Shown: positions 25,135 through 29,953 of the stretch, in pieces
Layout of the letters: each line of letters starts with the position of its first letter
Numbering within the stretch: the stretch's first letter is position 1
Origin: Leclercia adecarboxylata
Lineage (GTDB): Bacteria > Pseudomonadota > Gammaproteobacteria > Enterobacterales > Enterobacteriaceae
Assembly (NCBI RefSeq): GCF_006171285.1
Contig: NZ_CP040889.1
Coordinates: forward strand, 930,001-994,000
Direction of reading: 5' to 3'
Length of the DNA stretch: 64,000 nucleotides
Position numbers and translations under genes: made by a program
Notes under the pieces: model-generated
Seen by the model: only the letters and a program-made list of their open reading frames with translations
The model's database searches: none
Told to the model about the DNA's origin: nothing

Positions 25135-25541
25135 GCCTGCTCGTCTACTTCTCCAGCAGCTCGGAAAACACGCACCGCTTTATCGGGCGCCTCGGGCTGC
25201 CCGCCGTGCGTATTCCGCTGAACGAGCGGGAGCGGATCCAGGTGGACGAGCCTTTTATTCTGGTGGTGCCGAGCTATGGCGGCGGCGGAACGGCCGGGGC
25301 GGTACCGCGCCAGGCGATCCGCTTTCTCAACGACCCGCATAACCGGGCGCTTATCCGCGGGGTGATCGCCGCCGGCAACCGTAATTTCGGCGATGCCTTC
25401 TGCCGCGCCGGGGATGTCATTTCACAAAAGTGCGGCGTGCCGTACCTCTATCGCTTTGAGCTGATGGGGACGGAGCAGGACGTCGACAACGTGCGTAAAG
25501 GAGTGAACGAATTTTGGCAACGACAACCGCAGAACGCGTGA
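25131..25541 (+). CDS. nrdI: NrdI, flavodoxin-like activator of NrdF
   Basis: A 136-residue flavodoxin-like protein that supplies the oxidant for assembling the manganese-tyrosyl radical cofactor in NrdF. The FMN phosphate loop [12 protein letters not shown] is at residues 6-17, and VPSYGGGG and [12 protein letters not shown] follow. The length equals E. coli NrdI. It is coupled to nrdH by a four-base overlap, and the nrdE TTG start lies 28 bases before its stop. Confidence 0.96.
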
Positions 25542-27157
25542 TGCAGGGCTCGCAGGATTTCCATGCCCTGAACGCCATGCTGAACCTGTATGATGCTGAC
25601 GGGAAGATCCAGTTCAGCAAAGACGGTGAGGCGGTGGACGCCTTTTTTAACGCCCACGTGCGCCCCAACAGCGTGACCTTCGCCAGCACGCAGGCGCGTC
25701 TTGACTACCTGGTCAGCGAGGGCTACTACGACCCCCGCGTGCTGGCGCGCTTCGACAGCAGCTTTGTGCTGGGTCTTTTTGACCACGCCCACGCCAGCGG
25801 TTTTCGTTTCCAGACCTTCCTCGGCGCGTGGAAGTTTTACACCAGCTATACGCTGAAAACCTTCGACGGGAAGCGCTATCTCGAGAGCTTCGAGGATCGG
25901 GTGGTGATGGTCGCCCTGACCCTGGCTCAGGGGGATGAAACCCTGGCCCGCCAGCTGACGGACGAGATCCTCGCCGGGCGTTTTCAGCCCGCCACGCCCA
26001 CCTTCCTCAACTGCGGCAAGGCGCAGCGCGGGGAGCTGGTCTCCTGCTTCCTGCTGCGCATTGAAGACAACATGGAGTCAATTGGCCGGGCGGTGAACTC
26101 CGCCCTGCAACTCTCCAAGCGCGGCGGCGGGGTGGCCTTTTTACTCTCGAACCTGCGGGAAGCGGGCGCGCCCATCAAGCGCATCGAGAACCAGTCCTCC
26201 GGGGTGATCCCGGTGATGAAGATGCTGGAAGATGCTTTCTCCTACGCCAACCAGCTCGGGGCGCGTCAGGGGGCGGGAGCGGTTTATCTCCATGCCCATC
26301 ACCCGGATATCCTGCGCTTCCTCGATACCAAACGCGAAAACGCCGACGAAAAAATCCGCATCAAAACCCTTTCTCTGGGGGTAGTGATCCCGGATATCAC
26401 CTTCCGGCTGGCAAAAGAGAACGCCGAGATGGCGCTGTTCTCGCCTTATGACGTGGAGCGCATCTACGGCAAGCCGTTTGGTGATGTGGCGGTGAGCGAA
26501 CTGTACGACGAGATGGTGGCGGATACGCGGATCCGTAAAAAATACCTGAATGCCCGCGACTTCTTCCAGCGGCTGGCCGAGATCCAGTTTGAGTCCGGCT
26601 ATCCCTACATCATGTATGAGGACACGGTGAATCGCGCCAACCCCATAGCCGGGCGCATCAACATGAGCAACCTGTGCTCGGAGATTTTGCAGGTCAACAG
26701 CCCCTCGACCTATGACGAGAACCTGGACTACGCCCGCACCGGGCATGATATCTCCTGTAATCTGGGCTCGCTGAATATCGCCCACACCATGGACTCGCCG
26801 GACTTTGGCCGCACCGTCGAAACCGCGGTACGCGGCCTGTCGGCGGTATCGGACATGAGCCACATTCGCAGCGTGCCGTCGGTGGAGGCCGGGAATGCCG
26901 CCTCGCACGCCATCGGCCTCGGGCAGATGAACCTGCACGGCTATCTGGCCCGGGAAGGCATTGCCTACGGCAGCCCGGAGGGGCTGGACTTCACCAACCT
27001 CTACTTCTACACCATCACCTGGCACGCCCTGAATACCTCGATGATGCTGGCGCGGGAAAAGGGGCAGCGGTTTGCGGGCTTTGAGCAGTCCCGCTATGCC
27101 AGCGGAGAGTACTTTACCCAGTACCTTCGCGACGACTGGCAGCCGAAAACGGAATCT

Positions 27158-27169
27158 ATGGTCACTCCC
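27158..27169. repeat. IS inverted repeat, transposase 3' side
   Basis: ATGGTCACTCCC, a perfect inverted copy of 28462-28473. Three bases lie between it and the IS edge. Confidence 0.9.
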
Positions 27170-27409
27170 GTTTTTGCAACACCGATTTTGACGACAAGTT
27201 GGCTTGCTTGAATCTATCCGGCGTCTGAATGGGATTTTATTCCCGCGCCTTGATGAGTTCCGCGCCTGATGAACCTCCAGAAAATATACGGCTTCAATGA
27301 GCCTTTCCGTTTTACAGGTTCCTCAACAGGCCGGTGGGCCGTTAGTATCATCAATATCAGTATTCGCAAAACCAGATCAGTAATTCTTTAAACCGGTGTA
27401 TTTCTGCCG
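27170..27409 (-). ncRNA. Putative seekRNA (bridge RNA) region of the IS
   Basis: 240 bp without a gene lie between the transposase stop and the inverted repeat. Read in transposase sense it carries AAAACGGAAA (complement of 27304-27313), identical to the reconstructed nrdE target across the insertion point (AAAACGGAA|A). It also holds CTCATT (complement of 27296-27301), complementary to the AATGAG in the 7-bp end extension, and ATAGATTC (complement of 27210-27217), matching the other IS end plus adjoining nrdE bases. Guide RNAs of IS110/IS1111 elements pair with target and donor through such short segments. Exact RNA ends and structure were not determined. Confidence 0.55.
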
Positions 27410-28413
27410 TTATGCTACATAAGTTTGCTGTCGTGCCGTTAGGGCCCAGGCTATTCTGGCCAGCTTATTTGCCAGAGCACAAGTGACGACAAAGTTGCTT
27501 TTCCGGCACAGTAAATCCCTGACCCAATCGGCCAATTTGCCAGACTGGTGTTCCAGTTTTTGTATGAATACCCTGGCACATTGAACCAACAAAGTTCGGA
27601 TCTTTTTATTACCTCGCTTACTAATTCCCAGCAATGTCGTCCTACCTCCCGTGCTGTACTGCCGAGGTACAAGCCCTGTTGCCGCCGCAAAGTCACGGCT
27701 GCTGGCGTACTGCTTCCCGTCGCCAATCTCAGTTGAAATAGTACTCGCTGTCAGTGTTCCGACGCAGGGAATGCTCAGCAAGCGCTGTCCAACCTCATCT
27801 TCGTCCAACTTTCGTTTCAACTGGGATTCCAAATCTTTAATCTGCTCAACAAGATAGTGATAATGCTGTTGTAATTTCAGCAATAACTGGCTGAGGTAAA
27901 GAGGCAAACTATTATCCTCAAGAATGGTACTCAGTCGGCTAATAACGGCAGCTCCTCGGGGAACGCTAATGCCAAATTCCAGCAGAAAAGCATGCATTTG
28001 ATTGGTTGTTTTACCTTATCCTGAACCAGGGATTCACGGACACGATGCAGAGCCCGCATTGCCTGCTGAGATTCCGTTCTGGGCTGCACAAAACGCATAG
28101 ACGGACGCGATGCAGCTTCACAAATAGCTTCGGCGTCGACAAAGTCGTTTTTATTGCTTTTAACGAACGGGCGGACAAATTGTGGTGATATCAGCTTTGG
28201 GGAATGCCCCAACTCTTCCAACTTGCGTGCCATAAAGTGAGAACCGCCACAGGCTTCCATTGCGATGGTTGTAGCGGGGCATGTCGCCAAAAATTCGATC
28301 AACTTTGGCCGGGTAAATTTTTTACGGTAAACAGCCTTCCCGCGACGATCCTGGCAATGAATATGGAAAGAGTTTTTACCCAGATCGATACCAATGAGCG
28401 CAATGTTTTCCAT
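27410..28413 (-). pseudogene. IS110-family transposase (DEDD recombinase), frameshifted
   Basis: Two overlapping frames (28413 down to about 28005, then about 28005 down to 27410) together make one ~334-residue transposase. The N-terminal part has the DEDD RuvC-like motifs ([35 protein letters not shown]). The C-terminal part has the Transposase_20 region with SIPCVGTLTASTI, RDFAAATGLVPRQYSTGG and GISKRGNKKIRTLLV, including the catalytic-serine area. The shift lies at GTAAAAC, where one extra A would restore K-T-T-N-Q-M-x-A-F-L-L-E-F-G. No typical slippery heptamer is seen, so this is a one-base deletion or a read error rather than programmed frameshifting. Confidence 0.88.
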
Positions 28414-28461
28414 GATAGTTCTCCGAATGAAAGCCTGTCCTCAGCATAGTACCGGGAAGGA

Positions 28462-28473
28462 GGGAGTGACCAT
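28462..28473. repeat. IS inverted repeat, transposase 5' side
   Basis: GGGAGTGACCAT, a perfect inverted copy of 27158-27169. Seven bases (CTCATTA) lie between it and the IS edge. Confidence 0.9.
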
Positions 28474-28984
28474 CTCATTAAAAGTGCGCGCGCTATTTGC
28501 CCGCGCCGGGGTCAGCTTGCCGACGCGGGCGATGTGGCAGCAGCTGCGCGACGACGTGATGCGCTACGGCATCTATAACCAGAATCTGCAGGCGGTGCCG
28601 CCGACCGGGTCGATCTCCTACATCAATCATGCCACCTCGAGCATTCACCCTATTGTGTCGAAAATTGAGATCCGCAAAGAGGGCAAAACCGGGCGCGTCT
28701 ACTACCCTGCCCCCTTTATGACCAACGAGAATCTGGCCCTGTATCAGGACGCCTATGACATCGGCCCGGAGAAGATTATCGATACCTACGCCGAGGCGAC
28801 AAAACATGTCGATCAGGGGCTGTCGCTGACGCTCTTCTTCCCGGATACCGCCACCACCCGCGACATCAACAAAGCGCAGATCTACGCCTGGAAGAAAGGG
28901 ATCAAGACTTTGTATTACATTCGCCTGCGCCAGCTTGCGCTGGAAGGCACCGAAACAGAAGGCTGCGTGTCCTGCGCGCTGTAA

Positions 28985-29953
<969 letters not shown>

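Follow-up and report, generated by a model that had tools for sequence, protein, structure and literature searches.

A candidate guide RNA in the non-coding tail of IS4321 and an off-target insertion in nrdE of Leclercia adecarboxylata

Introduction

In the 64,000-nt stretch of the Leclercia adecarboxylata genome analysed here (the window), the gene nrdE (25514-28984), which encodes a subunit of class Ib ribonucleotide reductase, is split between 27154 and 28481 by an element of 1326 bp that lies on the minus strand. Why did the element insert at this site? The initial annotation proposed that a 10-nt segment of the element's own non-coding tail, at 27304-27313, is the target-binding guide of an RNA of the kind used by IS110 and IS1111 elements. 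Here, we compare this tail with those of relatives, and argue that the tail (27170-27409) very probably encodes a seekRNA, or bridge RNA, that guides IS4321, and that this guidance explains the insertion in nrdE as an off-target event.

The element and its copies

The 5' part of nrdE (25514-27154, plus strand) belongs to an ORF (25514-27211) that continues into the element, and the 3' part (28481-28984, plus strand) is 84% identical to annotated E. coli nrdE. The gene order of the window is presumably nrdHIEF followed by proVW, with names taken from ORF translations and nrdE alone named by comparison. Downstream of nrdE lies nrdF (28994-29953), on which the insertion may have a polar effect.

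The element (27155-28480, minus strand) was delimited from its boundaries, from database copies and from the empty nrdE sites of other species. It is 99.6-99.9% identical to database copies that, among the best matches listed, are mostly labelled IS4321, and is the well-known IS4321/IS5075 of the IS1111 family. All of its parts lie on the minus strand: a left-end extension TAATGAG of 7 bp (28474-28480), a left sub-terminal inverted repeat ATGGTCACTCCC (28462-28473), a DEDD transposase gene (27410-28413), the 240-nt non-coding tail delimited from the ORF list and the sequence (27170-27409), a right sub-terminal inverted repeat GGGAGTGACCAT (27158-27169) and a right-end extension AGA of 3 bp (27155-27157). 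The perfect 12-bp repeats (11-13 bp in IS1111 elements), the 7-bp and 3-bp extensions, and the non-coding region 3' of the transposase gene are all features of the IS1111 group. A published circle junction, AGATAATGAG, agrees with these two extensions (PMC5001619).

The window copy differs from another copy, L002, in a single column, a base deleted in the transposase gene; its transposase is therefore broken, with ORFs of 160 and 195 aa. The intact L002 product matches PF01548 (1.3e-20) and PF02371 (4.4e-20) in Pfam, which identifies it as an IS110/IS1111-type DEDD transposase. The same genome holds nine near-full-length IS4321 copies and two fragments, and one copy and one fragment at the ends of contig C7 probably make up one copy together. 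At least five of the own-genome transposase matches listed are intact, and the window copy would rely on the transposase of another copy, or its gene was broken after insertion, or the deletion is a sequencing error.

Precise insertion

Deletion of 27155-28480 yields CCGAAAACGGAA/AAAGTG (the slash marks the insertion point), the restored target that the initial annotation had described. Matches to nrdE were found in 11 of the 19 other genomes searched, and in these 11, all of the same genus, the intact gene aligns to the joined site without gaps (55-60 of 74 bases), so that no duplication or loss is seen. The exact string AAAACGGAA/A occurs in none of these 11 genes, all from other species and 86-92% identical over the nrdE stretch searched; a same-species nrdE without the element would be expected to contain AAAACGGAAAAAGTG.

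Other empty sites give the same picture. The site of L095 is empty in three viral contigs, two of which agree with its flanks at all 600 bases and one at 91.8%, without gaps; L097, a copy at the same site, compares with these three contigs at 92.5-97.5%, again without gaps; and the site of L102 is empty in one viral contig (99.5% over 383 bases, ungapped). In E. coli, the fliK site carries the element in G4/9 and lacks it in strain SK1144, with no duplication. Insertion without target duplication, as expected of an IS1111 element, is thus seen at the nrdE, viral and fliK sites. The IS4321-like copies L095, L097, L102 and L104 lie in contigs of a viral collection, and a pattern scan of viral contigs found no empty counterpart of L104. 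Several junctions are one base off the consensus, with one T fewer, one T more or one C fewer (L007/L011 on contig C7 of the same genome, L019, L065, L003, L087 and L104); these are either target variants or products of slightly imprecise recombination.

Target guides

Read in the transposase sense, the tail contains the three segments pointed out by the initial annotation, namely AAAACGGAAA (complement of 27304-27313), CTCATT (27296-27301) and ATAGATTC (27210-27217). The first, which we call T (27304-27313, minus strand), complements the top strand of the target from -1 to +9. A second segment, B (ATATTTTC, 27280-27287, minus strand), had been overlooked, and complements the bottom strand from -5 to +3. 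The element therefore carries two segments that match both strands of its own target, as seekRNAs and bridge RNAs do; in nrdE the T match is full (10/10) and the B match partial (6/8). Sequence comparison strongly supports the role proposed for 27304-27313, that of a target-binding guide in an IS1111 bridge RNA or seekRNA, with B as the second such guide.

How much weight can a 10-nt match bear? A junction-spanning match of at least 10 nt arose in 26 of 2000 dinucleotide-shuffled tails, and any such match within 15 nt of the junction in 38 of 2000. The match is thus above chance, as had been claimed, but modestly so, and these figures are the one point in favour of a coincidence in A/T-rich sequence, with IS4321 finding its site by protein recognition alone. 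The case for a guide is carried by comparative tests and not by the 10-mer.

Relatives were gathered by DNA or transposase similarity together with the left-end sequence, and their ends were set by the inverted repeats. We left out 42 of 150 transposase-match loci (inverted repeat not found, or match shorter than 250 residues), among them the window copy (L001, L012), whose gene is split and which L002 represents. From the remaining 108 we removed mis-called ends (L031, L144, L129), short flanks (L176, L139, L152), all copies of 97% identity or more apart from L002, and repeated tails, which left 56 elements. Comparison of each tail with the target and the ends of its own element shows four recurring segments in a constant order: T, B, and two that match the element ends, D1 and D2. 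Across relatives B is identical to the target top strand, and D2 repeats the right-end extension together with the base that follows it. Among the better-matching elements the spacing is 24-34 nt from T to B (mostly 26), 26-28 from B to D1 and 40-51 from D1 to D2.

In fixed windows across the 56 elements, each guide fits its own target or end better than swapped ones: the own and swapped means are 7.79 and 5.97 of 10 for T, 6.39 and 4.97 of 8 for B, 5.68 and 4.93 of 7 for D1, and 5.91 and 4.85 of 6 for D2, and none of 10000 permutations reached the own mean for any guide, in related elements that are non-independent (14 distinct sequences for D1, nine for D2) and with guide windows and lengths picked after the matches on the same elements had been viewed. 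The own feature ranks in the top 5% in 41 (T), 40 (B), 40 (D1) and 53 (D2) of the 56, which leaves the own target outside the T top 5% in 15. Strong matches are found in 35/56 for T (at least 8/10), 28/56 for B (at least 7/8), 36/56 for D1 (at least 6/7) and 51/56 for D2 (6/6). A whole-tail scan with 5000 permutations left the result unchanged, for D1 by a narrow margin. The comparison of each relative's guide with its own flanks, called for in the initial annotation, thus came out as a guide predicts. Two E. coli plasmid copies with 89-90% identity, L205 and L206, share a one-base change in T (GAAACGGAAA); L205 lies in a terminal repeat whose +9 position has the matching C, and L206 in a repeat with T at +9. 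In L078 both T and the repeat have diverged, and the ungapped T match is 7/10 only.

A chance match was rejected on these own-versus-swapped tests, which largely contradict the reading in which the 10-mer is a coincidence and protein alone finds the site. Recognition by protein alone also sits badly with the footprint of 19 off-target sites, which stops where the guides stop (see below). We consider this alternative extremely unlikely.

Donor guides

The initial annotation also noted that parts of the tail match the two end extensions. For the right end this fits a donor guide: D2 (ATAGAT, 27212-27217, minus strand) is the same as the right-end extension plus the first left-end base. For the left end the segment chosen, CTCATT at 27296-27301, falls in an apical hairpin between T and B (GGCTCATTGAAGCC, 27290-27303, minus strand) that is probably not a donor guide; CTCATT is retained in only two of 11 rows with the end TAATGAG (IS4321 and its 96% relative L053), and we rejected it in that role. 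Because this hairpin is poorly conserved, D1 was assigned instead to CTCAT at 27253-27257 (minus strand), which complements the left-end extension and is present at that position in each of the 11 rows of alignment A1 whose left end is TAATGAG. This is the most likely position of D1, a probable donor guide. D1 is the weakest of the four (whole-tail scan: own 6.82, swapped 6.49, permutation maximum 6.79), and elements ending in TAATTAG or TAATGTG nonetheless have ACTCATC at the D1 position. Segments that match the element's own ends are therefore present, clearly for D2 and moderately for D1, as judged by their top-5% ranks.

RNA structure

An alignment of 18 tails yields a consensus of two hairpins. 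T and B are opposed in an internal loop of the first, the target-binding hairpin (27265-27330, minus strand; from fold, alignment and sequence), while D1 and D2 border the apical stem of the second, whose apical hairpin in the donor-binding part lies at 27220-27249 (minus strand; from fold and alignment). Of the 21 base pairs, 12 vary on both sides, against a mean of 6.3 in 500 shuffles, none of which reached this number. Paired cells amount to 93.5%, against 29-43% with the partner slid, a control biased in favour of the structure, which was built from the same sequences. A conserved fold with the guides in internal loops is what seekRNAs and bridge RNAs possess.

At a threshold of E<0.001, a covariance model built from the 18 tails (R1) recovered 41 of 47 held-out loci, which are related to the training set, some of them closely (L113 to L111, by similar transposase scores); the misses were L142, L149, L116, L122, L136 and L057. 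The window tail matches at 27191-27341 (minus strand) with 147.7 bits, the identical tail of L002 being among the training sequences. Single-sequence folds are weak, with z-scores of -2.4 and -1.5, and the minimum-energy fold pairs T partly with B, where the consensus leaves both open. Such pairing is expected, because T and B recognise one and the same core, each on a different strand. The initial annotation had asked whether 27304-27313 might lie in a conserved stem: the consensus puts it in an internal loop, and only the single-sequence fold partly pairs it.

No curated Rfam family was found in 27100-28550. The sole match up to E=1, SNORD96, scored 20.8 bits against a cut-off of 43, and a known Rfam family was rejected on this score. 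The RNA model also matched upstream of some fetched elements (L126 at 547-701; L127 at 323-478 and 690-844), and one genome of L126/L127, G552, has three transposase matches within a stretch of 6 kb, a spacing that suggests clusters of IS1111 elements.

Could the guide segments instead work as DNA, for example as single strands extruded from the tail that anneal to the target? Sequence evidence by itself does not distinguish RNA from single-stranded DNA. Several consensus pairs, however, vary via G-U, and in the published relatives the RNA co-purifies with the transposase, and the loss of the ISEc11 tail is complemented by tail RNA provided from a plasmid (PMC11187229). We judge a DNA guide very unlikely, and continue with an RNA guide below.

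Target sites and the off-target footprint

In the transposase sense the nrdE site reads GCGCACTTT/TTCCGTTTTCGG, and the site of an own-genome copy in a Tn21-type terminal repeat reads GCTTTATT/TTCCGTTTTCTGAG; further own-genome sites are CAATATT/TTCGTTTTCC, CTATATT/TTCCTTTTTT and GCATCCT/TTCCGTTTTCC. Since the published target of IS4321/IS5075 is the terminal repeat of Tn21-family transposons (Partridge and Hall 2003, cited in PMC11187229, PMC8269217 and PMC5001619), nrdE is an off-target that resembles such a repeat, and not the usual target.

We reduced 108 copies, with some loci fetched repeatedly and copies without either end or flank left out, to 44 distinct flank pairs, of which 18 are transposon-end-like on both sides, six on one side and 20 on neither. 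The six one-sided pairs speak for a route by which the nrdE element might have arrived without transposition, namely homologous recombination with a transposon end. In the window, however, both flanks are nrdE and the junction fits the intact gene of 11 relatives without gaps; recombination predicts terminal-repeat sequence beyond the insertion point, and none is seen. This route is so improbable as to be negligible, and we retain transposition.

The 20 non-transposon pairs represent 19 distinct sites, nrdE among them (L096 and L200 mark one site, fetched at a shorter length in L096), a convenience sample from public records in which L013 is possibly a degenerate transposon end missed by the classifier. 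All 19 were hit by copies with an identical T segment. From -5 to +9 each position matches the guides in 14-19 of the 19 sites and holds 0.94-2.0 bits, against 0.02-0.36 bits at -14 to -6 and +10 to +15. The conserved span is that of B plus T, with the left limit of B at -5 taken from the commonest match; the RNA letters could carry it as far as -7, a position that matches in 10 of 19 sites, and -6 matches in 5 of 19. The same guide at unrelated sites had been named as an observation that would count against a guide. Such sites do occur, but all 19 share 10-14 of the 14 footprint bases, and for this reason they support the guide instead. A strict requirement for A at -5, present in 19 of 19 sites, was rejected, as the main Tn21-type repeat has T there.

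How do the two target guides share the work? The T match is full and the B match partial (6/8) at nrdE, fliK and L009, and a 16-mer across the insertion point, AAAACGGAAAAAGTGC, is common to E. coli fliK (L199, L304) and the window nrdE, both hit by IS4321. The B match is full and T weak at L102 (T 6/10) and L104 (T 7/10), and the empty counterpart of L102 has the same mismatches prior to insertion. Over the 19 sites the T-only and B-only matches correlate at -0.56 (2 of 10000 permutations as low), and the overlapping scores over the first 15 sites at -0.83. This negative correlation fits additive recognition, and any threshold on total match would yield the same. Perhaps T and B are partly interchangeable halves of one additive recognition, a reading to which we give an even chance.

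Do the guides explain why nrdE was chosen? Saturation of good sites was considered and rejected: the genome has no unoccupied site with zero or one mismatch to the 14-nt footprint, and by our estimate only about two would be expected by chance. There are 62 two-mismatch sites (six of them the element's own right junction), against 51 in a reversed control, and exact TTTCCGTTTT occurs 21 times (nine are the guides themselves and 12 are unoccupied), against 38. Because the unoccupied sites, 56 matching 12/14 and 12 exact for T, are at about the level of the reversed controls, the guides alone do not explain the choice of nrdE.

Proposed mechanism

Boundaries, precise insertion, guides, consensus structure and footprint are established at the level of sequence, and the active steps that we propose follow published relatives. 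By this analogy, the IS4321 tail would be transcribed into a bridge RNA or seekRNA of two hairpins. In the first hairpin, positions -1 to +9 of the target top strand would be paired by T, on the 5' arm of the internal loop, and positions -5 to +3 of the bottom strand by B, on the 3' arm; the sequence that the two read jointly is ATATT/TTCCGTTTT. The joined element ends (ATAGA/TAATGAG) would be paired by D1 and D2 of the second hairpin. Bound to this RNA, the DEDD recombinase would then join target and donor by strand exchange and insert the element precisely, without duplication. The preferred target would be the Tn21-family terminal repeat, and nrdE an off-target accepted with T at 10/10 and B at 6/8.

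Relation to known systems

The mechanism itself is published for IS110 and IS1111 elements (PMC11187229, PMC11208160, PMC11208158). In the IS1111 group, a seekRNA co-purifies with the transposases of four members and is essential for transposition (PMC11187229). These four, ISEc11, ISKpn4, ISPst6 and ISPa11, resemble IS4321 in that the RNA lies 3' of the transposase gene, the top-strand match precedes the bottom-strand match (5' of it) and both overlap in the target, the end extensions are 7 bp and 3 bp, and there is no target duplication (PMC11187229). In the available parts of that paper, however, IS4321 is represented only by its target logo, of nearly 900 insertions, and there is no description of donor guides. 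The bridge RNA of IS621 and the predicted IS110/IS1111 bridge RNAs likewise have target and donor parts with a guide for each strand, but the IS621 RNA lies at the opposite end of its element, and in each of its parts the left guide precedes the right one, the reverse of the order in IS4321 (PMC11208160, PMC11208158). IS4321 is absent from the six elements drawn in the available part of PMC11208160.

A further parallel is IS5075 in ureC of K. pneumoniae, where the same element group occupies a chromosomal gene with similarity to the Tn21 terminal repeat. In the portions available, that 2021 paper invokes target similarity and proposes a 13-bp consensus target (PMC8269217); nrdE is not in its main text. 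A search of journal literature, mainly open-access, for the seekRNA or bridge RNA of IS4321 led only to the three papers on the mechanism (PMC11187229, PMC11208160 and PMC11208158), and the parts of them covered here contain no assignment of its guides. What appears to be new here is the guide set of IS4321 and nrdE as one more off-target, with no new mechanism.

Significance

IS4321/IS5075 is widespread: at least 5000 plasmid records match it, and 1482 of 5426 complete E. coli genomes contain at least a partial match. The element resides on Tn21-type transposons that bear resistance genes (PMC8269217). Among chromosomal genes it has broken nrdE in the window, fliK and a yfeC-like gene, and ureC is likewise disrupted in print (PMC8269217). 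With both target guides known, the insertions in nrdE, fliK, the yfeC-like gene and ureC come under a single rule. They also show, in naturally occurring data, how mismatches are tolerated by a class of recombinase that is relevant to genome engineering. If the additive reading is true, natural insertions would chart these mismatches in a form that could be used to predict off-target sites in genomes for recombinases of this type.
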